Positions 2,951-44,128 of a DNA stretch of 44,186 nt are shown in pieces. Every line of letters begins with the position of its first letter. The first letter of the stretch is position 1. Source of the stretch: Amycolatopsis keratiniphila subsp. keratiniphila (GTDB lineage Bacteria > Actinomycetota > Actinomycetes > Mycobacteriales > Pseudonocardiaceae); assembly GCF_001620365.2 (NCBI RefSeq), contig NZ_LQMT02000006.1, positions 1 to 44,186 of the forward strand, given 5' to 3'. A model generated the notes under the pieces. The model was not told where the DNA came from, searched no databases, and saw only the letters and a list, made by a program, of their open reading frames with translations. Both the position numbers and the translations under genes were made by a program.

Positions 2951-3254
2951 ATGGGCCGAACGTTCTGCCGGTGGACCGACTCCCCTCCCCCGCAGTGGTA
3001 GTTCGACCAGGCCGCCCCTACGTTTTGCCGGACGAGACACCGGAGAGGCGAAGGAGGCGCCGGGGTGACTTCCCTTCCCTGCCGTGCGCCAGAGTCTCCG
3101 GTATGTGTCTACACATCCGGCCTCACGTTATCGCGTCTCAGGCGAACTCAGCCCTTGTTTTTCGTCTTGATCTTCACTCGTTGGGCTGGACTTTTATTTT
3201 TAATAATCTAACAAGTGTTTTGACTTCCTCAAAATTAAAAGTCGCCGTAGAGTG
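2951..3254. promoter_or_regulatory. Divergent intergenic region with AT-rich tract
   Basis: No gene. Bases 3188-3245 are strikingly AT-rich against a very GC-rich background. The segment TTGACTTCCTCAAAATTAAA then AGTCG (about 3222-3247) resembles TTGATTTTCTCAAAAATCAA then AGTCG at about 11141-11166. It directly precedes the coiled-coil gene and is the likely promoter/operator, possibly autoregulated. Confidence 0.5.
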
Positions 3255-4427
3255 ATGGGTATGACTGAGCCTGCCGTGACCTCCCCCGAACCTGATTCGG
3301 CCCCCGTCCGCATCTGCGGATATCGCAAGTGCGACCGCCGGTTGCCGGCCCAGAAGGGCCGGGGGCGGCCGCTGGAGTTCTGCAAGGACCGCCAGTGGCC
3401 GCCGGGCGGGAAGTCCTGCCGGGAGATGGAGGCCGAGGCGAAGCAGGCCGAGCAGGCGGCCGGGCTGGACGTGCCGCTGGCGACGTACCGGGAGGTATCG
3501 GAGCCGCTGCTGGAGGTGCTGGACGGGCTGGCTGTGCGGCTGACCGAGCACGCCGGCGCGGTGCGCGGGGTGGAGTCCGGGGCGCTGGCCCGGATCACCG
3601 ACGCCGAGGAGACGACCCTGCGGGCGGTCGCGCGGGCCGAGGAAGCCGAAGGCGAGCGGGCCAAGGCAATCCGCCAGTCGGAGCGGGACCGGGCCGAGGT
3701 GACGCAGGCCCGCGAGGACGTCATGGCCGCCAAGCGCATGGCGCGCGAGGCCGAGGCCGAGAAGGAGCGGGAGGTGAGCGCGGCCTGGCGGAAGACCGTC
3801 GAGCACGAGGGCAAGCGGGCCGCGGCCGAGGCGAAGGCGGAAGCGGTGTCCGGGAACCTCAAGGCGATGACGGACCGGTTCAACACGTTGGCCGAGGAGG
3901 CCAAGGGGCTGGAGAAGCGGAACAAGGAACTTGACCGCAAGGCCGCGGCAGCCGAGGCCGAGGCGACGGCCGCCGAGAAGGCCCGCCAGCAGTTCGAGGC
4001 CACGGCGACGGCGAAGGCGGCCGAGGCGGAACAGGAGCGCGCGGCCGCGGCCGAGGCCCGCGGGGCGGCGACGCGCGCCGAGGAGCGGCTGGCCGAGGTC
4101 CAGGCCGAGCTGACCGAGGCGAACGGCACCGTGGAGCAGCTGCGCAGCGACGTCACCGGGGCCCGCGCCGAGACTGCCGTGGAGAAGGGGCGCGCGGACA
4201 CCGCCGAGCGGGAGCTGGCCGAGGCCCGCGCCGAGGTCGAGCAGACCGGCGGGCAGCTCACGGAGGCGAACCGCACCGTGGAGCAGCTGCGCGGCGACGT
4301 CACCAGGGCCCGCGCCGAGGTCGAGCGGTTGACGACCGAGCTGGCCGCGGCGACGTCGGCCGCGGCGACGGTGGACCAGCTGCGCGGGCTGCTGGCCGAG
4401 GTCACGAAGGGCAAGGGCGCGAAGTAG
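3255..4427 (+). CDS. Coiled-coil protein with N-terminal Cys cluster (KfrA-like architecture)
   Basis: About 390 residues. Residues ~18-60 contain CGYRKCDRRLP and FCKDRQWPPGGKSC, four cysteines that could bind zinc and DNA. From residue ~60 to the end the protein is an almost uninterrupted heptad-rich A/E/R/K coiled coil, with an internal duplication (TVEQLRSDVTGARAE and TVEQLRGDVTRARAE). The layout of a small DNA-binding head plus a very long coiled coil resembles KfrA/KorB-type plasmid proteins, but no homology is claimed. Starts at 3252 (GTG), 3255 or 3261 (ATG) are all possible; no strong Shine-Dalgarno is visible, so the mRNA may be leaderless. It stands alone between an AT-rich promoter and a bidirectional terminator. 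The role, perhaps partition or DNA organisation, is inferred. Confidence 0.65.
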   Translation: MGMTEPAVTSPEPDSAPVRICGYRKCDRRLPAQKGRGRPLEFCKDRQWPPGGKSCREMEAEAKQAEQAAGLDVPLATYREVSEPLLEVLDGLAVRLTEHAGAVRGVESGALARITDAEETTLRAVARAEEAEGERAKAIRQSERDRAEVTQAREDVMAAKRMAREAEAEKEREVSAAWRKTVEHEGKRAAAEAKAEAVSGNLKAMTDRFNTLAEEAKGLEKRNKELDRKAAAAEAEATAAEKARQQFEATATAKAAEAEQERAAAAEARGAATRAEERLAEVQAELTEANGTVEQLRSDVTGARAETAVEKGRADTAERELAEARAEVEQTGGQLTEANRTVEQLRGDVTRARAEVERLTTELAAATSAAATVDQLRGLLAEVTKGKGAK

Positions 4428-4454
4428 GCGCGGGGCCGTCCTCGAGAGCGAACA

Positions 4455-4497
4455 AGCAGCCGGCCCCCGGTCCGCGATGGACCGGGGGCCGGCTGCT
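4455..4497. terminator. Strong bidirectional hairpin terminator
   Basis: Perfect 19-bp arms (4455-4473 and 4479-4497) with a 5-base loop, between the convergent genes ending at 4427 (+) and 4501 (-). Confidence 0.75.
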
Positions 4498-4500
4498 GTT

Positions 4501-5022
4501 CTACGTGGCCACGTCGTACACCTCGGCGAACCCTTCGCGCCGGAGCCGCCGGCGGGTCAGGGTCCGCACGGTCCACCACATCCGCACCACCACCAGCGCC
4601 GGCACTCTCCGCGGCCGGGATCGGTTGCGGCGCAACGTCTCCAGCAGTGAGCACCGGAGCCGGACCGCGACCGGTGCCGCGCCGTGCTCGGCGGCAAGTG
4701 CCCGCCATCGGGCTCGGTCCCGCGGGTGGGCCCCGGTCGCGTCGATCGTGACGTCTCGCCCGGCGGCCAGGTGGTCGGCGGCGCGCGCCTGGACGAGATC
4801 GAACGCCGCGGCCGAGGCCGCCTGGTCCTCCTCGCCGGTGCCGATCTCGGCGCGGGCGCGGTCGGTCGAGAGCACCGCGCCCAGCTCGGCGCGGTCACGA
4901 CACCACGTGCTCTTGCCCGTGCCGGGGGCCGCGATCAGCACTCGGAGCCAGGCCCGAGGCGGGGTCTCCCCTCCCCCGGTGTGCTGGTGTTCTGATGGGT
5001 TGCCGCTGCTCACTGCGGACAT
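4501..5022 (-). CDS. P-loop kinase, polynucleotide-kinase-like AAA ATPase
   Basis: About 173 residues with a clear Walker A, APGTGKST (residues ~32-39), followed by STDRARAEIG and IDATGAHPRDRARWRALA. This order matches the small P-loop kinases of the bacterial Pnkp / AAA_33 type that phosphorylate nucleic-acid ends or small molecules. The C-terminus is arginine-rich. Start is uncertain: ATG 5022 has AAGGGA upstream but overlaps the preceding gene and encodes the start-associated repeat as residues 5-15; GTG 4941, after the repeat and a GGGGGAGGGGAG, is the alternative. Substrate unknown. Confidence 0.6.
   Translation of the reverse strand: MSAVSSGNPSEHQHTGGGETPPRAWLRVLIAAPGTGKSTWCRDRAELGAVLSTDRARAEIGTGEEDQAASAAAFDLVQARAADHLAAGRDVTIDATGAHPRDRARWRALAAEHGAAPVAVRLRCSLLETLRRNRSRPRRVPALVVVRMWWTVRTLTRRRLRREGFAEVYDVAT
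4979..5012 (-). repeat. Start-associated repeat, copy 3
   Basis: Begins on the minus strand exactly with the TGA stop of the HNH gene (5012-5010) and ends just before GGGGGAGGGGAG. Confidence 0.8.
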
Positions 5023-13784: not shown

Positions 13785-14579
13785 TCAGCTCCCGTCAGTC
13801 CGCGGCCAGGCCGCCGAGTCCGCGCGGGGGATCGGGTGGTCAATCTCGAACTTGTCGCCGGAGACGCGCTGGTCCAGGACTTCGACGGGCCGGCCATCGG
13901 GGAGCGAGGTCACGCGCTGCTGGCGGAGAACAGCCGAGGTGCGCGCGATGGACAGGCGCTTACTGGTCTCCGCGGTCGCCAGCTCGGCGGTAACGATCAT
14001 GTGCCAGGCCAGCGGGCCGCCCAGGGTCTCCTCGATGCGGTCGTAAATGCCGCCGGGGCCGGGATCGGCCTTCTTCACCGCGGGAACCTCCTCGGCCACC
14101 CAGCCGGGGAGGTAGGTGGTGGACAGGATCATGGGCTGGTCGTGGTTGCGTCCCTCGGCCAGGTTGCGCGGCTGGCCCAGGGTGCGGTCCCGGATCACCA
14201 CCTCCGCGCCGGGCTCGATGTTGAGCAGGTGCGCGACGTCGGGCGGTGCTTCGCCGAGCTGGACTCCGTAGTGGTGGAGGAGCTGATGCCGGCGGCCGCC
14301 GGACTGGAGGTAGTAGCCGCGTGCGTCGCGTTCGATGGCGGACCGGGTGAGCCGGTCGCGGCCGGTGGGGTCGAGTACCACGGTTCCGCGGTTTTTCCGT
14401 GGCTCGACCAGGTGTTGCTCCCGGAGTAGGCGGTAGGCCCGGCGAACCGTCGAGCGGTTCACGCCGAGCTGGCTGGCCAGGTCGTCCTCACGGGGGAGAA
14501 CGTGGCCGGGCTCAAACTCTCTCGACAAGATGCGTTGCCGCAGGTCGGCGGCCACTTTTGTCGGGTCGGGCGTGGTCAC
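13785..14579 (-). CDS. GntR-family transfer repressor, KorSA-like
   Basis: A 264-residue protein: an N-terminal GntR winged helix (residues ~5-70; VLPREDDLASQLGVNRSTVRRAYRLL) and a UTRA effector domain (~95-250; IRDRTLGQP, ILSTTYLPGWVAEEVP, EILDQ-like VEVLDQRVSGDKFEI). Same architecture and genomic place as KorSA of pSAM2 and KorA-like repressors of Streptomyces transfer operons. GTG 14579 follows AGGAG. Divergently arranged with the spd/tra operon; the shared control region holds TGACAA...TTGTCA, so autoregulation plus repression of transfer is inferred. Confidence 0.8.
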   Translation of the reverse strand: MTTPDPTKVAADLRQRILSREFEPGHVLPREDDLASQLGVNRSTVRRAYRLLREQHLVEPRKNRGTVVLDPTGRDRLTRSAIERDARGYYLQSGGRRHQLLHHYGVQLGEAPPDVAHLLNIEPGAEVVIRDRTLGQPRNLAEGRNHDQPMILSTTYLPGWVAEEVPAVKKADPGPGGIYDRIEETLGGPLAWHMIVTAELATAETSKRLSIARTSAVLRQQRVTSLPDGRPVEVLDQRVSGDKFEIDHPIPRADSAAWPRTDGS

Positions 14580-15483: not shown

Positions 15484-15701
15484 TGCGCCGGAAGAACCCG
15501 CACGTGGACACCGTGGGAGACGGCGGCCTGTTCCTGGCCCTCGGAGCCGGTTTCCTCGCCTTCCTGTTCCTGCTCGGCGTGGTCGCGCTGACGGGGGAGT
15601 GGTTCGGCCGCGGCGTTGGCCAGACGGTGCTGGAGGTCGGCCTGTGCGCGGTGTTCGTCCTGGTCGTCGGGCTGGCGTGCCGCGGTGGTGATCGGCGATG
15701 A
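15483..15701 (+). CDS. Small two-pass membrane protein, 72 aa
   Basis: Two hydrophobic helices (~17-38 and ~48-66) with positively charged ends (MRRKNP, RGGDRR). Coupled on both sides (TGATG and ATGA). Typical of small Spd proteins that sit in the membrane with SpdB and TraB; function by context only. Confidence 0.6.
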   Translation: MRRKNPHVDTVGDGGLFLALGAGFLAFLFLLGVVALTGEWFGRGVGQTVLEVGLCAVFVLVVGLACRGGDRR

Positions 15702-16108
15702 ACCAGCCGACGCCGGTCAGCAAACCGCCGTTGTTGTTCGTGGCGGACGAGCTGCTGGACCTGGACGACTCCGCGCGCAGCGGGTTCGCGGTCACGGTGC
15801 CGTGCCTGGATATCGGCGACGGTCACGTGTCGGTGTGGCCGCGGTTCCGGGTGAAGACGAACCCGCAGGGCTACGCGCTGTCGATGACGCTCGACCTGCG
15901 GGCCTGGTGCATCACGGTGCACGGCCAGGAGGCCGACCTGACGTTGCCGATGGAGTGCCACACCCAGCAGGCCGGCCAGAAGGCCGCCGAGACGTTCCGG
16001 GCGCACCTGCTCCAGAACTACGTGGCCGCGCAGGACCCCGAGGCGGTGCGGCAGTGGTGCCGCTGGTGGGTGCAGAACAGCGACCCGTACGCACGGGTCA
16101 TCGAATGA
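15698..16108 (+). CDS. Hypothetical soluble protein of transfer operon, 136 aa
   Basis: Not recognised. A mainly beta N-terminal half (FAVTVPCLDIGDGHVSVWPRF) and a helical, tryptophan-rich end (VRQWCRWWVQNSDPYA). No membrane segment. ATG 15698 overlaps the previous stop. Likely part of the spread/transfer set. Confidence 0.6.
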   Translation: MNQPTPVSKPPLLFVADELLDLDDSARSGFAVTVPCLDIGDGHVSVWPRFRVKTNPQGYALSMTLDLRAWCITVHGQEADLTLPMECHTQQAGQKAAETFRAHLLQNYVAAQDPEAVRQWCRWWVQNSDPYARVIE

Positions 16109-16140
16109 AAGGGCGCGAAAAATGGCGCTTTTTGGGTTGC

Positions 16141-16174
16141 TGACCAGGCGTAACCCAGCAGCACGACAGCACAA
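16141..16174 (+). repeat. Start-associated repeat, copy 8 (plus strand)
   Basis: Begins TGACCAGGCGTAACCCAGCA, then GCACGACAGCACAA; followed by GGAGGAG and GTG 16197. It shows that orientation follows the gene it precedes. Confidence 0.7.
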
Positions 16175-16196
16175 CGGCACGACGGAGGAGAACCAG

Positions 16197-17726
16197 GTGA
16201 CGGCGGTACTTGCGGAGGTAGAGGCGGAGATCCGCCTTGCTGACGCGGCGGAGGAGCGGCGGCTCCGGGTTCGCCGGGAGGAGCTGGAGCTGGCCCAGCT
16301 GGAGGCCGAGGCAGCCGAGGCGGCCGAGGAGCGCAAGCAGAAGAAAGCCCAGCTCAAGCGCACCACGCGGAAGACCACGCGGAAGACCACGCGGGAGGGC
16401 AACCGTGCTCGTCGACGGGCAGCCCGGAAGGCATGGCGGGAACGGTTCCAGGCCGCGTTGGCCGGTCGCCTGGTGCTGCTGCTGGTGTTCTCGGCGGTGG
16501 TGACGGCCTGGTACGGGCAGGCCGGCTACCTCTCCGGCCCGGTTGACCAGGGCGGTAGGGGACTGGCGTGGCCGTTCGCGGTCACCGGCGCTACCGCGCT
16601 GGAGGTCCTGGGCCTGGCGATGGGCGCGATTGCCCGCGCCGCGGGGGAGCACCGGGACCGCGCGCTCCGCGCCCGGCTGCTCATGTGGGCCGTGATCGCC
16701 TTCTCCGCCTGGTCGAACTGGCAGCACAACGGCGTGGTGCTGGCCGCGCTGTCGATCCTCGGGCCGACGTCCTGGGAGATTCACGAGTGGTGGCAGCGCC
16801 GCGCGAAGCTGCACGAGGACGGCAAGCTCCGGGCTCGGCCGGTGCGGCCGCGGTTCCCGCTGGACCAGGTTCTCCTGTTCCCGGTGCGGACGCTGCTGGC
16901 CTACCGGGTGGCGGTGCGGGATCGGATCGAGGACGCCGAGCTGGCGCTGGATCGGGTCCGGATCGAGCGCGAGACCCGGCGCGCCTTCGGGCGGCGCAAC
17001 CGCCGGCGGTTCGCCAAGGCGGTCCGGGAGTCGATCGATTCGAGCAATCGGGCGTTGGCCGATCGGGCCCGATCCGAGATCGAGGCCGCCCGCGAGATCC
17101 GCGCCGAGGCCGAGGGCATCCTGGCCGCCGGAGCGCTGCTGCTCGGCCCGGATCGGGTCCGCGAGGTCGCCGAGCCGATCACCGCGGCCCTGCCGAGCGA
17201 AGCCGATCCGATCGAGCCGGGGGAGCCGATCGAAGCCAGCCGATCCACCGATGACCAGGGCCATCCGATCCGCCGCCGGAGGTTGTTCCGGTCGATCGGA
17301 CGCCGATCGGACACCCGGCCCGAGCCGATCGAGAACGGCGCGGCCGATCCGATCGAGGCCCCGGCAACCGATCCGATCGAGCCGACCCGATCGGCTCCGG
17401 AGTCGATCGAGCAGCCCGGCCCGATCGGTTCCGGTGAGCCGATCGAGCAGGCCCCGGCCGCCGAGTCGGAGCCGATCGAGCGGACCGCGGACACCACCAA
17501 GGACGCCAGCCGATCGGTTCACCCGATCCGCCGCCGATCCGCTCGCGGGAAGCCGATCGAGCAGCTTCGGCGCGAGGCGGCCGAGCTGATCGAGGCGAAG
17601 GGCTGGACCCCGGAGCAGATCACCGCGGACAACCTGCGGACCGCGTTGCGCTGCTCGCCGAAGCGGGCCCGCGAGATCCGGGACTACTTCCAGCAGCGAC
17701 CGAACACCAGCCAGGCCGCGGCCTGA
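16197..17726 (+). CDS. SpdB/DUF2637-like membrane protein
   Basis: About 509 residues from GTG 16197 (GGAGGAG upstream); ATG 16122 is an in-frame alternative that would encode the start-associated repeat. An N-terminal coiled coil (~5-80) is followed by four hydrophobic segments (~85-200) matching the DUF2637/SpdB type: LLLVFSAVVTAWY, ATALEVLGLAMG, IAFSAWSNWQHNG, SILGPTSWEIHEWW. The C-terminal half is unusual: it is rich in PIE/DPIE and RS units because the DNA is packed with CCGATC hexamers in all frames. It ends in a helical segment (PEQITADNLRTALRCSPKRAREI) resembling an HTH. SpdB proteins assist spread of conjugative Streptomyces plasmids; DNA binding here is inferred. Confidence 0.7.
   Translation: MTAVLAEVEAEIRLADAAEERRLRVRREELELAQLEAEAAEAAEERKQKKAQLKRTTRKTTRKTTREGNRARRRAARKAWRERFQAALAGRLVLLLVFSAVVTAWYGQAGYLSGPVDQGGRGLAWPFAVTGATALEVLGLAMGAIARAAGEHRDRALRARLLMWAVIAFSAWSNWQHNGVVLAALSILGPTSWEIHEWWQRRAKLHEDGKLRARPVRPRFPLDQVLLFPVRTLLAYRVAVRDRIEDAELALDRVRIERETRRAFGRRNRRRFAKAVRESIDSSNRALADRARSEIEAAREIRAEAEGILAAGALLLGPDRVREVAEPITAALPSEADPIEPGEPIEASRSTDDQGHPIRRRRLFRSIGRRSDTRPEPIENGAADPIEAPATDPIEPTRSAPESIEQPGPIGSGEPIEQAPAAESEPIERTADTTKDASRSVHPIRRRSARGKPIEQLRREAAELIEAKGWTPEQITADNLRTALRCSPKRAREIRDYFQQRPNTSQAAA
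17059..17560. repeat. Cluster of 22 CCGATC hexamers (candidate TraB recognition/clt locus)
   Basis: Twenty-two CCGATC and about 36 GATC occur between 16920 and 17730, where base composition predicts about two GATC. The hexamer is used in all three codon phases, so protein sequence does not explain it. It lies immediately upstream of the FtsK-like traB candidate. Confidence 0.7.
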
Positions 17727-17746
17727 TCGAGAGAGAGGAGAGGGAC

Positions 17747-20059
17747 GTGGAGGAGAACGTGGTGGTGAGTTTCGAGCAGGCCCGCCAGGCCCGCGGTCAC
17801 GGTCAGCCGTACGCCGAAGGCGCGACGGCCCCGGCGATGACGACGGACCAGCCCGGCCTGGTCGGCCAGGTGGCCGACTACCCGCAGCAGCCCGAACACC
17901 CCGGCCAGGTGCCGCACACCAGCGCCTACAACTGGCAGCAGCCCGGCCCGGAGACCGGCCCGCAGCAGGTTCACCAGCCCTACGGCTACCCGAACCAGGC
18001 GTACTACCAGCAGGAACAGCAGTACCCGCCCTACGGCTACCCGCACCCCGGCTACGTGCACGCCCAGTCGGAACGGCTGGACCGGCCGGAGGAGACGCCG
18101 ATTCCGGGTATGGAGGTGGTGCCCGCCCCGCGGCGGTTTCAACGGCCGCGCCGCCGAGCTCCACTGGCGGTAAACGGCCAGATCAACGGCGCGGAGCTGG
18201 TGCGCCGAGCCGACCGCCGGGAAGCTCGGCGACGGCAGGCCCGCACCGCCGGCGGCTGGCTTCGTGTCCGGCTGTGGTGGACCGTGCGCGGCCTCGGCGC
18301 GACCGTGCGCGCGGTGTACCGGATCGTCTGGCAGCCGGACATGCCGGAGCTGATCCGCGGCATGAAGGAGACCGACCCCGCCAAGGCCCGCGCGGCCCGG
18401 AAGGAGCTGCGCCGCGAGCGGGCCCGCGCGGTCGCCGGGCTCTGCCTGGTCGGCGCGGCCAGCTACGGCGCGGTCGAATTCTGGGGAGACGACCTGGTGG
18501 AGGCCCTGCCCTGGTGGTCCTACCCGGCCGCGGCCGCGGTGGTGGTGCCGCTGCTGGCCATCGCCGGACGGGTCGAGCAGGAGGAGACCGAGGAGGAGGT
18601 CCAGACGGCCGAGATGCCCGCCGGCCTGGAGCTGTCCAGCTCGGACTCCGGGGTGAAAGCCACGCTCAAGGAGGCGTTCGCGGACCTGAAACTCCGCGCG
18701 AAGGTCCACGATGTCCAGCGCGACCCGGCCGGTTGGGGCTGGACCGTGGTGGTTGCCGTGCTCGAAAAGATCACCGAGGGCAAGCTGGAGGACCTGGAGC
18801 GGTTCCTGAACACGCCGGTGGGCGGGCTGGTGCTCTCGCCGGAGAACCGGGCCGCGCGGGTGCGGACACTGCGGATCGTCATGGCCGACCTGCTGGCTAC
18901 GCCGAGCGCGGCACCGCGGCGGCCGCCGCTGTCGCTGAGCGTGCGCCAGCCGGTCGAGCTGGCCACCCGTTTCGACGGCGGCCGCCTGGCCCTGGCCCTG
19001 TTCGCGCGCCACATTCTCCTCATCGGGCGCACCCGCTCCGGGAAGTCGAACGCCCTCCACGACATTCTGGACGCGCTGACCGCGGCCGGTGACGTCGTGG
19101 TGGACGGCCTGGACCTCTCGGCCGGCCCCGACGTGCGGACGTGGGAGCCCGTGCTGAGGAAGTACGTCGGCGGCCAGGACTACGTGGCCGCGGAGCGGCT
19201 GCTGACCGACGCCAAAACCCTGATCGAGGACCGGACGGCCCAGCTCGGCGCGCGGGACTGGAACCCGGAGACGGACGGCCCCGCGCACGCCGTGGTGATT
19301 GACGAGTACGGCCTGGTGGCCGCCATTCCGCGGCTGCGCCTGCTGGTGGAGTACGTCGTCACCTACGGCGCGAAAGCCGGTGTGTTCGCCATCCTGGCGA
19401 ACCAGCGCAAGGTCAAGGAGATGATGGGATCGGCCCTGATCGGCTCCCAGGTCCACATCAAGATCTACCTTGGCATGTCCGACGAGGACGCCGAGGCCCT
19501 GCCGAAATCGCTGCGTGAGCAGGGCGTTCGCCCGCAGCACTTCCGCCAGGCCGCGGACAACGACCCCGGCGACGCCGGTAAGGCGTTCGTCCTCGGCGTC
19601 GAACCCCTCCCGGTCCTGGTCCGATTCGACCGCACCACCCGCGAGGAGGCCGCCCAGCGCGCCGCCGAGCGCGCCGCGACCCGCCCGCAGCTGCGCGAAC
19701 GGGACCAGCAGATCCTCCGCCGGAACGAGACCGAAGGCGTTCCCGCGTTGCTGCTGGCCACGCGGGAGGCCGTGCTGTCCGCCTCCAGCGCCGCCGGCCG
19801 CGAGCAGGCCCGCGCCTCGGGGGAGGAGATCGTCCGCTACCTCGGCGAACGCGGTCACGCGGTGGACAAGAACGGCTTGACCAGGGCCCTCCGGGAGGCG
19901 TCCGGCGGCCTGATCGCCAAGAGCCGGGACACCAACCTGGCCCCCGGCAGCAACCCGAAGGGCTTCTACCTGGAGGACCTGGACAACGCGATCCGCGCGC
20001 TTCAAGAGCGGGCCCGGCAGCAGGCCGAGGCCCAGACCACGGGAGGTGTTCATGCCTGA
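17747..20059 (+). CDS. traB: TraB-like FtsK/SpoIIIE DNA translocase
   Basis: 770 residues. The first ~120 residues are Gln/Pro/Tyr-rich (QQPGPETGPQQVHQPYGYP). Two membrane segments follow at ~225-245 and ~255-275. The motor domain has Walker A GRTRSGKS (~427-434), Walker B AVVIDEYG (~512) and LANQRKVKEMM, a sensor-like loop. The C-terminal part contains a possible winged helix (EEIVRYLGERGHAVDKNGLTRAL). In Streptomyces a single TraB hexamer moves double-stranded plasmid DNA after binding 8-bp repeats; this protein fits in length, topology and operon position. GTG 17747 follows a purine-rich GAGAGGAGAGGGA. Confidence 0.8.
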   Translation: MEENVVVSFEQARQARGHGQPYAEGATAPAMTTDQPGLVGQVADYPQQPEHPGQVPHTSAYNWQQPGPETGPQQVHQPYGYPNQAYYQQEQQYPPYGYPHPGYVHAQSERLDRPEETPIPGMEVVPAPRRFQRPRRRAPLAVNGQINGAELVRRADRREARRRQARTAGGWLRVRLWWTVRGLGATVRAVYRIVWQPDMPELIRGMKETDPAKARAARKELRRERARAVAGLCLVGAASYGAVEFWGDDLVEALPWWSYPAAAAVVVPLLAIAGRVEQEETEEEVQTAEMPAGLELSSSDSGVKATLKEAFADLKLRAKVHDVQRDPAGWGWTVVVAVLEKITEGKLEDLERFLNTPVGGLVLSPENRAARVRTLRIVMADLLATPSAAPRRPPLSLSVRQPVELATRFDGGRLALALFARHILLIGRTRSGKSNALHDILDALTAAGDVVVDGLDLSAGPDVRTWEPVLRKYVGGQDYVAAERLLTDAKTLIEDRTAQLGARDWNPETDGPAHAVVIDEYGLVAAIPRLRLLVEYVVTYGAKAGVFAILANQRKVKEMMGSALIGSQVHIKIYLGMSDEDAEALPKSLREQGVRPQHFRQAADNDPGDAGKAFVLGVEPLPVLVRFDRTTREEAAQRAAERAATRPQLRERDQQILRRNETEGVPALLLATREAVLSASSAAGREQARASGEEIVRYLGERGHAVDKNGLTRALREASGGLIAKSRDTNLAPGSNPKGFYLEDLDNAIRALQERARQQAEAQTTGGVHA

Positions 20060-22397: not shown

Positions 22398-23894
22398 GTG
22401 ATCGGCCGGGTTGTGCGCGGCTGGCGCGCCCGCGGCCTGATCGCATACCTGTTCGGCCCCGGCCGCCACCACGAGCACCAGGACCCGCACGTGGTGGCCG
22501 TCTGGGACGGCTGTGAACGGCTGCACCAACCGCGCGAAACCGCGCCGGGCCGGTTCGACGTCGCCGACCTGGCGGCCGCGCTCACCGCCCCGGCCGCGGC
22601 CGCCGGCGTCCCGCAGAACCCGCTGGCGGTGCGCGAAGGCCAGGACCGGCCCCAGGGCCCGGTCTGGCACTGCTCGCTCCGCGCCGCACCCGAGGACCGC
22701 GAGCTGACCGGCGCGGAGTGGGCGGAGATCGTGGCCGAGGTGCTGGACCGGACCGGCATCGCGCCCCGCGGAGATCCCGGCGGGTGTCGGTGGGTCGCGG
22801 TGCGCCATGCGGCCGATCACGTCCACGTCGCCGCGGTCCTGGTCCGTCAGGACACCCTCCGCCGCGTGCATCCGCGGCGGGACTACCACCGCGTCCGGGA
22901 GGCGTGCCTGGCCGCCGAGCAGCGGTACGTCCTGCGCCCGACCAGCCCGGCCGACGCCACCGCCCCGTCCGCGCCGAACCGCGGCGAACAGGAGAAGGCC
23001 GCCCGCCAAGGCCGCGAGCCGAGCCGGGAGCAGCTGCGCCGCCTCGTCCGCTCGGCCGCGGCCCGCGCGAGCGGCCCGGAGGAGTTCCTGGAGACGCTGG
23101 CCGCGCGCGTGCAGGTCCGGGCCCGCCGAACGCCCGGCGGCCAGCTGGCCGGTTACGCGGTGGCCGTTTCCGGCGACCGGGACCGGCAGGCGGAACCGAT
23201 CTGGTTCGCCGGGCGGACGTTGGCCGCTGACCTGTCCGCGGCCCGGCTGACCGAGCGGTGGGCCAGCGCCCCGCGGCCGCCGGCCCCGGCCAGCCGCATG
23301 GAGGAACGGCGGAGCGCCGCGTGGACCTCGGCGACCGCGGCCGCCGAACGGGCCCGCGCCGAGCTGGCCACCGACCCCGCCGGCATCGCGCACGCCACCG
23401 GAGACCTCCTGCTGGTCCTGGCCCACGTCACCGACTCGGCGAGCCAGCCGCCGCTGGAGACCGCGGCCGCCGAGTTCGAGCGCGCCGCCCGCCACCCCGG
23501 CCGCGGCCAGCCGGTCACCTGGAGCCGCGCGGCCGCCGACCTGCGGACCGCGGCCTGGCGGCTGGCGCGGGTGCGCACCGGGCCCAGCACCAGCGCGGCC
23601 GCGGTGCTGGCGCTGCTGCTGGCCGTGGCCGCCCTGGTGGCCGAGCTGGCGGCCTGGCGGGCCCAGCGGAACCAGCTGGCCGCCGCGGCGGCCGCCGACC
23701 GCGCGCGGGAGGCCCTGGCCGGCCACGTCGTCCAGTTCGCCGAGCGGCACCGCGGCCACGCCACGGCCGCCGAGCAGCCCGCGGCCGCCGAGTCGGCGAA
23801 GCGCCGTCCTCGAGGGCGGATCGCCGGGCAGAAGCCGCCGGCGCACCTGCACCGCCCGACCGGTGTCCCTGGTCGTCCTGGCCGTGGCCGATGA
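22398..23894 (+). CDS. mobA: Relaxase / mobilization nuclease
   Basis: 498 residues. The N-terminal pattern LIAYLFGPGRHHEHQDPHVV is that of actinobacterial MobA-type relaxases; Tyr near residue 17 is the likely nicking residue. RHAADHVHVAAVLV (~135-148) supplies the histidine metal cluster (HUH-like motif III). The second half is helical, Ala/Arg-rich, with a hydrophobic stretch near residue 410 (LALLLAVAALVAELAAW). Relaxases nick at oriT, stay bound to the 5' end and are led out by a coupling protein, here probably the translocase at 25008. Confidence 0.8.
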   Translation: MIGRVVRGWRARGLIAYLFGPGRHHEHQDPHVVAVWDGCERLHQPRETAPGRFDVADLAAALTAPAAAAGVPQNPLAVREGQDRPQGPVWHCSLRAAPEDRELTGAEWAEIVAEVLDRTGIAPRGDPGGCRWVAVRHAADHVHVAAVLVRQDTLRRVHPRRDYHRVREACLAAEQRYVLRPTSPADATAPSAPNRGEQEKAARQGREPSREQLRRLVRSAAARASGPEEFLETLAARVQVRARRTPGGQLAGYAVAVSGDRDRQAEPIWFAGRTLAADLSAARLTERWASAPRPPAPASRMEERRSAAWTSATAAAERARAELATDPAGIAHATGDLLLVLAHVTDSASQPPLETAAAEFERAARHPGRGQPVTWSRAAADLRTAAWRLARVRTGPSTSAAAVLALLLAVAALVAELAAWRAQRNQLAAAAAADRAREALAGHVVQFAERHRGHATAAEQPAAAESAKRRPRGRIAGQKPPAHLHRPTGVPGRPGRGR

Positions 23895-42220: not shown

Positions 42221-42256
42221 GGTGTGCTGACGTGCTGGTGGGCTACCGCTGGTTGT
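42221..42256 (-). repeat. Start-associated repeat, copy 19
   Basis: Contains the TAG of the 42243 gene (CAGCGGTAGCCCACCAG). The next gene starts 200 bases away. Confidence 0.8.
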
Positions 42257-42878: not shown

Positions 42879-43267
42879 CCTGCATTTTCGGACTGTTTCA
42901 GGCTGCCGAGGAGTTCCACGAGTGCCGAAGTCTTCTCCGGGTCCTTCGGCCCGGTCTCCGGCATGAAGCTCTCCACGTCGAACCCGCGAGCGCTCATCAG
43001 CAGCACCAGGCCGGCCGCGTGAAGATCCTGGAGGTCCTGGTCCTCCTCGTCGGCGAAGGCCCGTGCGGCGCTGCGTACCCACCGGGGCACCTTCGAGTTG
43101 AAGGCGGTCCGCTCCCACGGGTCCACGCGCGGAATCCGCCGGCGACGCGGACGCGCCGCCGCGCTCTCTTTCGTGCTGGCTTCGTCGCGGGCGGCGTTGG
43201 CCTGCGCCACCAGCGACACCGCCACGTTGTCCCCCAGGAGGTTCTGGGCGGTGAATCGCTCGCTCAT
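42875..43267 (-). CDS. ParA partner, candidate centromere-binding protein
   Basis: 130 residues. A basic linker (RPRRRRIPRVDPWERTAFNS), then KVPRWVRSAARAFADEEDQD and a helical C-terminus. Size, ATGA overlap with parA and lack of ParB motifs fit the small DNA-binding partners of actinobacterial plasmid ParA proteins. The binding site is unknown. Confidence 0.6.
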   Translation of the reverse strand: MSERFTAQNLLGDNVAVSLVAQANAARDEASTKESAAARPRRRRIPRVDPWERTAFNSKVPRWVRSAARAFADEEDQDLQDLHAAGLVLLMSARGFDVESFMPETGPKDPEKTSALVELLGSLKQSENAG

Positions 43268-44088
43268 GCTGCTTTCTCCAGTGCTCGGTCCAGCCAGGCG
43301 TCCAGAACCTTGGTGACTTCCGGCTGGCGTGGGTGCTGGTAGTCATGGATCGGCTTCCCCGCCGAGGTGGCCTGGCTGACCACCTGCCGACGCGGGAGCA
43401 CGTCGTCCCACATCACGCCACCGAACGCGGTGCGGATCTCGCCGAGGCGGGTCCGGTGCTCCTGCAAGTTCTCGTCATGCTGGGTGACCACCGCGGCGGC
43501 CTCGCGCATCCGGGGAAGCCCGTTGTTGCCCATCAGCTTGGTGAGCTGAGTCCAGGTGGAGGCGAGCCCCTGTACGCCGAACCGCTCAGGTTCGCACACG
43601 GCCAGCACCACCTCGGACTCGCGCGCGCCCATCGTGGTCAGCATGTTCATGGCGGGGCGGCAGTCGCAGATGATCAGGTCCACCAGCGGCCGGGCGTGCT
43701 CCATGAGCAGGCTGAACGTGTTCATCACGCCGGGGTCGGACCGCTCGATGCGCTCCAGGCCGAGAGTGGCGGGCAGCAGGTGCACCCCGGACCACTCCGG
43801 CCGGGCCGGGTACATGGCCTGTTGGAGGTCAGCCGCGGTCGGCCTGTTCATCTCCAGCAGGTCCACCAGGGCCAGCGGTGCCTCTCGGGGCCGGTCCGCG
43901 GTCTCCGCGACCTTCTCAAGGTATTTCGGGTGCGCGATGACGTCTGTCCCGTTGTTCTGCGGGTCCAGGTCCACGTACAGCACCCGCTTTCCGCGAGCAC
44001 GGGCGGCGGAGGCCAGGCCGAGGGACACAGTGGTCTTGCCGATACCGCCCTTTAGGCCGAGGACGGCGACGCTGGGGGTAGAAGTCAC
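43264..44088 (-). CDS. parA: ParA-family partition ATPase
   Basis: About 274 residues with the deviant Walker A KGGIGKTT (~13-20), LYVDLDPQNNGTDV, and a Walker B-like VDLIICDCRP (~130). ParA ATPases segregate low-copy plasmids together with a ParB-like partner, here the overlapping 42875 gene. GTG 44088 places KGGIGKTT at the usual distance; GTG 44106 and 44127 are in frame. It is the last gene before the right terminus. Confidence 0.85.
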   Translation of the reverse strand: MTSTPSVAVLGLKGGIGKTTVSLGLASAARARGKRVLYVDLDPQNNGTDVIAHPKYLEKVAETADRPREAPLALVDLLEMNRPTAADLQQAMYPARPEWSGVHLLPATLGLERIERSDPGVMNTFSLLMEHARPLVDLIICDCRPAMNMLTTMGARESEVVLAVCEPERFGVQGLASTWTQLTKLMGNNGLPRMREAAAVVTQHDENLQEHRTRLGEIRTAFGGVMWDDVLPRRQVVSQATSAGKPIHDYQHPRQPEVTKVLDAWLDRALEKAA

Positions 44089-44128
44089 CGGGGCATTGTG
44101 GCGCACTTTCTCCGGCGTCACCAGCACG

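Follow-up and report, generated by a model that had tools for sequence, protein, structure and literature searches.

A clt- or centromere-like repeat array within an spdB-like gene of Amycolatopsis keratiniphila, likely read by the helix-turn-helix domain of its own product

Introduction

Does a dense cluster of one hexamer inside a protein-coding gene act as a site on the DNA, and if so, which protein reads it? This question is raised by the window analysed here, the whole 44,186-base contig (C56) of the 9.09-Mb genome of Amycolatopsis keratiniphila subsp. keratiniphila. A preliminary description of it reported 22 copies of CCGATC at 17059–17560 (+), in a gene just upstream of a traB candidate, and proposed a clt-like loading site for the translocase embedded in coding sequence. 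Recounting returned the same 22 copies, as well as the 36 GATC described for 16920–17730, and CCGATC occupied every codon phase (12/4/6 in the ORF 16122–17726).

Results and discussion

Excess of CCGATC over protein and codon usage

The earlier expectation of roughly two GATC in this stretch holds for base composition (2.1) but not for the local background, because the remainder of the window carries 5.5 GATC per kb, giving about 4.4 expected at 16920–17730. The statement that the hexamers are beyond what codon choice or repeats in the protein could produce was too strong: synonymous shuffles keeping both the protein and the codon counts (5000 shuffles) yielded a mean of 11.4 CCGATC, so the protein and its codons account for about half of the copies. 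Nevertheless, such shuffles, which had been named as a possible refutation, did not reach the observed density (maximum 17 versus 22), and under the downstream gene's codon usage the mean dropped to 6.0. When all 6–8-mers were allowed to compete, the spdB-like gene scored z 7.2, which none of the 300 null shuffles equalled (p 0.0033, the lowest value this test can give); among the 26 other window ORFs serving as a control, the best z was 4.2 and p fell under 0.05 in three.

The suggested 8-mer does not appear to be fixed: the copies have in common a core, CGATCG/CCGATC, with varying flanks. As regards an 8-bp word such as that of the pSVH1 clt, the core CGATCG is palindromic. On the gene's strand there are 17 non-palindromic CCGATC versus 4 non-palindromic GATCGG, plus 5 CCGATCGG. 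All eight window copies of CCGATCGA and 9 of the 13 copies of AGCCGATC lie inside the cluster, and 14 of the 30 places (partly overlapping) in the whole genome at which three CCGATC follow one another at gaps of at most 30 bases fall within it.

Architecture of the module

The array-bearing gene (16122–17726, +) encodes a 534-aa protein with a DUF2637 domain (PF10935, E 8.5e-10, 39.2 bits against a curated cut-off of 22.8); an alternative start at 16197 is possible (509 aa, as in protein P0001). Its name, SpdB-like, is that of the preliminary description and rests on DUF2637 and on the place beside a TraB-like gene, and the spreading role is putative. The structural model comprises a long N-terminal helix, more helices, a disordered stretch and a confident three-helix C-terminal domain. 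The predicted disordered linker (model residues 333–447, only two of which reach a pLDDT of 50) corresponds to bases 17193–17537 (+) after conversion by hand, and 18 of the 22 CCGATC start within this stretch. It is followed by the predicted helix-turn-helix (HTH)-like domain, here called type I, which contains LRCSPKRAREIRDYF (17556–17696, +; residues 454–500, pLDDT about 92) and whose predicted structure bears a weak likeness to winged helices. Judging from the DUF2637/SpdB family and the hydrophobic helices, the protein probably resides in the membrane.

As had been described, the cluster lies directly upstream of the traB candidate: the spdB-like gene ends at 17726 and a putative TraB/FtsK-like ATPase of 770 aa begins at 17747 (17747–20059, +). 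The best Foldseek match of the ATPase is the FtsK motor 6t8g (E 4.9e-12, from a low-confidence model with mean pLDDT 55), and its translation contains the P-loop GRTRSGKS, in keeping with an FtsK motor fold, while Pfam FtsK_SpoIIIE scored 15.9 bits, below its cut-off of 24. A small gene upstream of spdB (15698–16108, +) has relatives at the equivalent place in loci L031 and L032, and a GntR/UTRA regulator (13785–14579, −) has relatives near the SpdB-like genes of the same two loci.

Arrays at the equivalent place in related genes

Matches to the SpdB-like protein were found in 15 of 199 related genomes, its own included, the closest being on a 110,438-base contig of G002, a genome of the same genus; further relatives were added beyond this search. 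Among these relatives, protein divergence is strong in the stretch that joins the N-terminal part to the C-terminal domain, but in several of them the DNA of this stretch forms an array once more, built on a different word. L032 contains 30 copies of CGGCCAGC (phases 7/13/10; 2 in reverse complement), L059 (S. spinosa) 47 copies of CGACCG (phases 4/25/18; 7 in reverse complement), L057 (S. pogona plasmid) 40 copies of TCGATCGA (phases 30/4/6), and L075, whose gene is truncated by the contig end, 12 copies of TTCCGGCA (phases 0/5/7). L031 (A. thailandensis) has 15 CGATCG (phases 3/7/5) in a weaker array, in which the top word is CCGATC with 8 copies (family-wise p 0.037). The S. pogona plasmid (86 kb) has 42 TCGATCGA copies in all, 40 of them in the L057 gene, and three Streptomyces plasmids show a like layout, with GTCCGGAC, TCCGGTCC and CGGAACG ahead of the C-terminal domain. 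The annotation of this TCGATCGA plasmid, NZ_CP031143.1 of Saccharopolyspora pogona (L154/L155), also lists genes for phage tail, minor capsid, RecT and exonuclease proteins, so its SpdB/TraB-like module looks to sit on a phage-plasmid. Contig G144:C1 has four equal-scoring copies of the SpdB-like match.

A survey across the phylum found PF10935 in 16 of 246 genomes (own included), at 63 places. The 61 genes surveyed comprised 58 of these places and three from Streptomyces plasmids, hand-picked among 53 records; the window's own gene, G499, G480:C80, G480:C99 and G605:C1:3094410 were left out. Multi-phase arrays (at least 7 copies, z at least 5) occurred in seven of these DUF2637 genes (L117, L123, L131, L140, L151, L152 and L153), and the other 54 were without a multi-frame array at z 5. 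The arrays of L151–L153 lie mostly just ahead of the C-terminal domain and that of L117 in the N-terminal part.

These relatives bear on the idea that the window's hexamers serve a host GATC-binding factor such as Gbn, or GATC methylation or restriction. Streptomyces Gbn, a nucleoid protein, does bind GATC, best as GATCWT, and resembles the reader proposed below in being an actinobacterial protein with a three-helix HTH, as modelled in the same source (PMC9239103); however, it is described there as chromosomal, GATCWT is absent at 16920–17730, and arrays lacking GATC occupy the equivalent place in related genes. We regard such a host factor as extremely improbable.

Spacing and polarity of the arrays

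In L032, 29 of 32 successive spacings measure 11–13, 22–24, 35, 45 or 56 bases, and L075 is similar. The best period is 11.40 bp in both loci, of a strength never reached in 1000 random placements, and in L059 it is 11.60 bp (p 0.006 for CGACCG and 0.061 for GGCGACCG). A period of the 11.4-bp type is not a codon period and is about one DNA turn. The arrays of the window (p 0.75) and of L031 showed no spacing period, and L057 has one of 8.9 bp (p 0.004), which fits its three-codon SIE/SID repeats. The arrays of L032 (30 versus 2) and L059 (47 versus 7) are polar; sites that shared a helix face and an orientation would be well matched to a protein array that binds cooperatively. The unrelated words CGGCCAG and TTCCG share the identical 11.40-bp period (L032 and L075).

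Could the repeats simply be low-complexity coding DNA, kept for the protein or expanded by slippage, with no role for the DNA itself? About half of the window copies are expected from protein and codons, the L057 period matches a peptide repeat, and GCGGAAGC keeps to a single frame in L037 (phases 17/0/0) and L038 (9/0/0), all of which would suit such an origin. It fails to account for words that occur in all frames with unequal spacers and above the codon shuffles, for the 11.4-bp period in two arrays, and for words that track the HTH type (see below), and we consider it very unlikely. The GCGGAAGC repeats of L037, L048 and L038, in one codon phase only and encoding an AEA coiled-coil-like stretch, show codon choice beyond synonymous shuffles. 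With the readings summed, we judge some DNA-level function for the array to be very likely.

Association of two repeat words with the type of the predicted C-terminal HTH

Two HTH types were distinguished by profiles built from seven type I and six type II genes. The class test covered 94 distinct genes, after genes matching an earlier gene in the last 300 bases had been dropped and with L045 left out, where the gene pattern found none; 15 genes passed the type I profile and 12 the type II profile. CGATCG had a median density of 5.7 per kb in type I versus 1.1 in type II (p 0.005), and in the 64 genes with neither type the median was 0. For CGACCG the figures were 6.2 per kb in type II versus 2.1 in type I (p 0.02), with 1.5 among the 64 genes of neither type; both p-values ignore the relatedness of the genes. 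All nine genes encoding an L[RK]C[SA]P helix contain more CGATCG than CGACCG, and 8 of the 12 type II genes contain at least 4 CGACCG.

The association is incomplete on either side. In all six type I profile genes that lack L[RK]C[SA]P, CGATCG numbers 0–3 and forms no array, and one gene of this kind, L163, has 4 CGACCG. Four of the 12 type II genes (L032, L039, L173 and L174) have 0 or 1 CGACCG, and L032 scores as type II yet carries CGGCCAGC. The LRC[SA]P genes L042, L043, L044, L046 and L047 have 2–5 copies each, none beating every shuffle, and among the type II genes CGACCG exceeds every shuffle in L059 and L040 only. Nor are these genes independent of one another: some of the type II loci are close kin (the TraB proteins of L033, L072 and L073 are at 90–93% identity), and seven type I and six type II genes had already served to build the profiles. 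The association between word and HTH has few independent lineages behind it.

Decoding from protein alone placed CGATCG at ranks 2–15 of 4096 words in five of six further type I proteins, and CGACCG at ranks 1–13 in all four type II proteins, with types assigned by eye and the fragment P0002 left out; in the remaining type I protein, P0010, CGATCG ranked only 165th, though CCGATC was in the top ten. A type I HTH profile search of 197 genomes of the class, in which the word was not used, gave eight places in six genomes besides the window's own. The best new match, in another family, contains 15 CGATCG (phases 5/7/3), and the other seven, weaker matches have no CGATCG array. Judged by eye, the C-terminal domain of P0008, an SpdB homologue with a TQ-rich linker, belongs to a third type, and AACCCA/ACCCAA-like words were obtained by decoding this protein.

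Repeat words and the neighbouring TraB-like ATPases

The type I HTH with the CGATCG core stands beside at least three TraB-like types, namely those of the window and L031, of L057 and, weakly, of L042–L047; by blastp these types share 23–27% identity over parts, or nothing. The L059 ATPase, beside CGACCG, has no blastp match to other TraB-like proteins. Conversely, the TraB of the window type adjoins a type II HTH with CGGCCAGC in L032, and probably one with CGACCG in P0013/P0021, for which the word comes from protein decoding and the neighbour status is presumed; the tables give P0013 and P0021 an identical longest contig of 17,208 bases.

These neighbourhoods speak to the translocase reading put forward in the preliminary description, taken here as a classical clt: its reader would be the winged helix at the C-terminal end of the adjacent TraB-like protein, and it would load this translocase for double-stranded DNA transfer like the TRS repeats in Streptomyces plasmids. 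Loading sites of FtsK-type motors are polar (KOPS), as several of the arrays are. The array is directly upstream of the TraB-like gene, TraB-type proteins have been reported to bind clustered short repeats at clt (PMC4170104, PMC3583192, PMC12857230), and TraB C-termini also differ within the window-type group, between L031/window and L032/P0021. Against this, the CGATCG core recurs beside barely alignable TraB-like types while the SpdB HTH type stays constant, CGACCG accompanies the unmatched L059 ATPase, and L074 and L076 (array or type II loci) have no P-loop ATPase ORF close downstream by pattern search. What stands of the earlier proposal is a DNA-level, multi-frame array in coding sequence beside a TraB/FtsK-like gene, as at clt sites, and TraB as its reader is less supported; we hold this reader possible but rather improbable. 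Because two words track the HTH type and recur across unlike TraB-like neighbours, the SpdB-like HTH is the more plausible candidate. From these sequence comparisons we infer a docking array akin to clt sites or centromeres, with the SpdB-like HTH rather than TraB as its likely reader.

Comparison with known systems

The nearest known precedents appear to be clt and sps sites. The clt/TRS sites of the Streptomyces plasmids pSVH1, pIJ101, pJV1 and pWTY27 are described as read by TraB-type proteins (PMC4170104, PMC3583192). Like the window array, they group short repeats beside a tra gene, with words that vary from plasmid to plasmid, and the clt of pWTY27 overlaps traA by 16 bp (PMC3583192). 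In contrast, these clt sites have few copies (for example, four TGACACC or nine CCGCACA[CG][CG]) and the translocase as reader, whereas the window has 22 copies (relatives up to 47) in all frames of an spdB-like gene, and its word tracks the SpdB HTH.

The sps sites of spdA/spdA2 resemble the array as proposed here in having a DNA-binding Spd protein, SpdA2, as reader and, in most plasmids, a position in the reader's own gene, and we count the mild effect of SpdA2/sps on plasmid stability among the likenesses; as described, they differ in comprising 2–3 copies of one conserved 12-bp palindrome, equivalent to one amino-acid motif, in being read by a different, small protein and in being invariant between elements (PMC4170104). 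An sps site proper was rejected for the window, where 22 hexamers lie in a DUF2637 gene instead of 2–3 conserved 12-bp palindromes in an spdA-type gene.

A regulatory role, in which SpdB or a small regulator bound within the coding sequence would keep down transcription from the spdB-traB operon, would find a parallel here. Many DNA-binding proteins have sites within or close to the gene that encodes them, and a GntR regulator lies near the module; yet 12 to 47 sites over about 0.5–1 kb exceed the usual need of an operator, and GATC counts in 500-base bins gave no second peak in the window ahead of the genes. SpdA2/sps is itself one case of such binding (PMC4170104). We consider regulation unlikely.

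As recounted in PMC4170104, SpdB2 of pSVH1 is integral to the membrane, has DNA-binding activity, forms oligomers and interacts with TraB. These properties fit the tethering half of the proposal given below; SpdB2 differs in that its DNA binding is described in the same source as non-specific, and no site array is part of that description. The parC centromeres of ParMRC systems likewise consist of direct repeats (11 bp in R1), whose word and spacing vary by family and set specificity, but as described they usually lie upstream of parM, are read by a typically ribbon-helix-helix ParR and are not multi-frame coding arrays in the reader's own gene (PMC9426499). The window array is also an array of direct repeats, with regular spacing found only in its relatives.

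A proposed self-addressed tethering array

We favour, as rather likely, that the array provides binding sites for the predicted C-terminal HTH of the gene's own product, tethering the element's DNA at the membrane. The putatively membrane-seated SpdB-like protein would hold its HTH through the flexible linker, and the HTH would bind the many-copy array within its own gene. Element DNA could thereby be brought to the TraB-like pump at the cell pole or septum, for conjugal transfer or for spreading between cell compartments. With reader and sites in one cassette, one recombination could swap specificity.

Whether this extends to SpdB-like proteins of actinobacterial mobile elements in general seems to us evenly poised. 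In that case one gene would comprise both reader and address, the linker amino acids would be largely by-products of the array, linker and HTH would move as a specificity cassette, and a private address would exclude foreign DNA from the transfer or spreading machine. If true, an element's address could be read from its spdB linker, partly from protein sequence alone, and two overlapping codes would coexist, with DNA sites shaping a disordered stretch of protein.

Other features of the window

Besides the TraB-like translocase, known relatives of which are reported to move double-stranded DNA (PMC12857230), the contig encodes a putative MobA/VirD2-like relaxase (22398–23894, +; PF03432, 36.1 bits, cut-off 24.6). 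At the contig end, the ORF 43264–44127 (−) contains a ParA-like P-loop, GGIGKTT, going by its translation. The ORF 3200–4708 (−) has a GCCGAG/GGCCGAGG cluster near 3501–4200 and gave no multi-phase signal in the codon-shuffle test (p 0.78). A conserved word, approximately AGCCCAYCAGCACGNCAGCACAYC, occurs at 11 places in the window: at 16161 on the forward strand and at 42235, 40604, 39693, 39005, 38186, 36389, 31668, 9703, 8781 and 759 on the reverse strand. Nine of these are no more than 100 bases away from a same-strand ORF start (the exceptions are 36389 and 31668), and the word translates to an odd N-terminal ARQHT/ARQHN. A copy of its core is found 24 bases ahead of the DUF2637 gene in L032, and the word may act throughout the element as an upstream control or leader signal.
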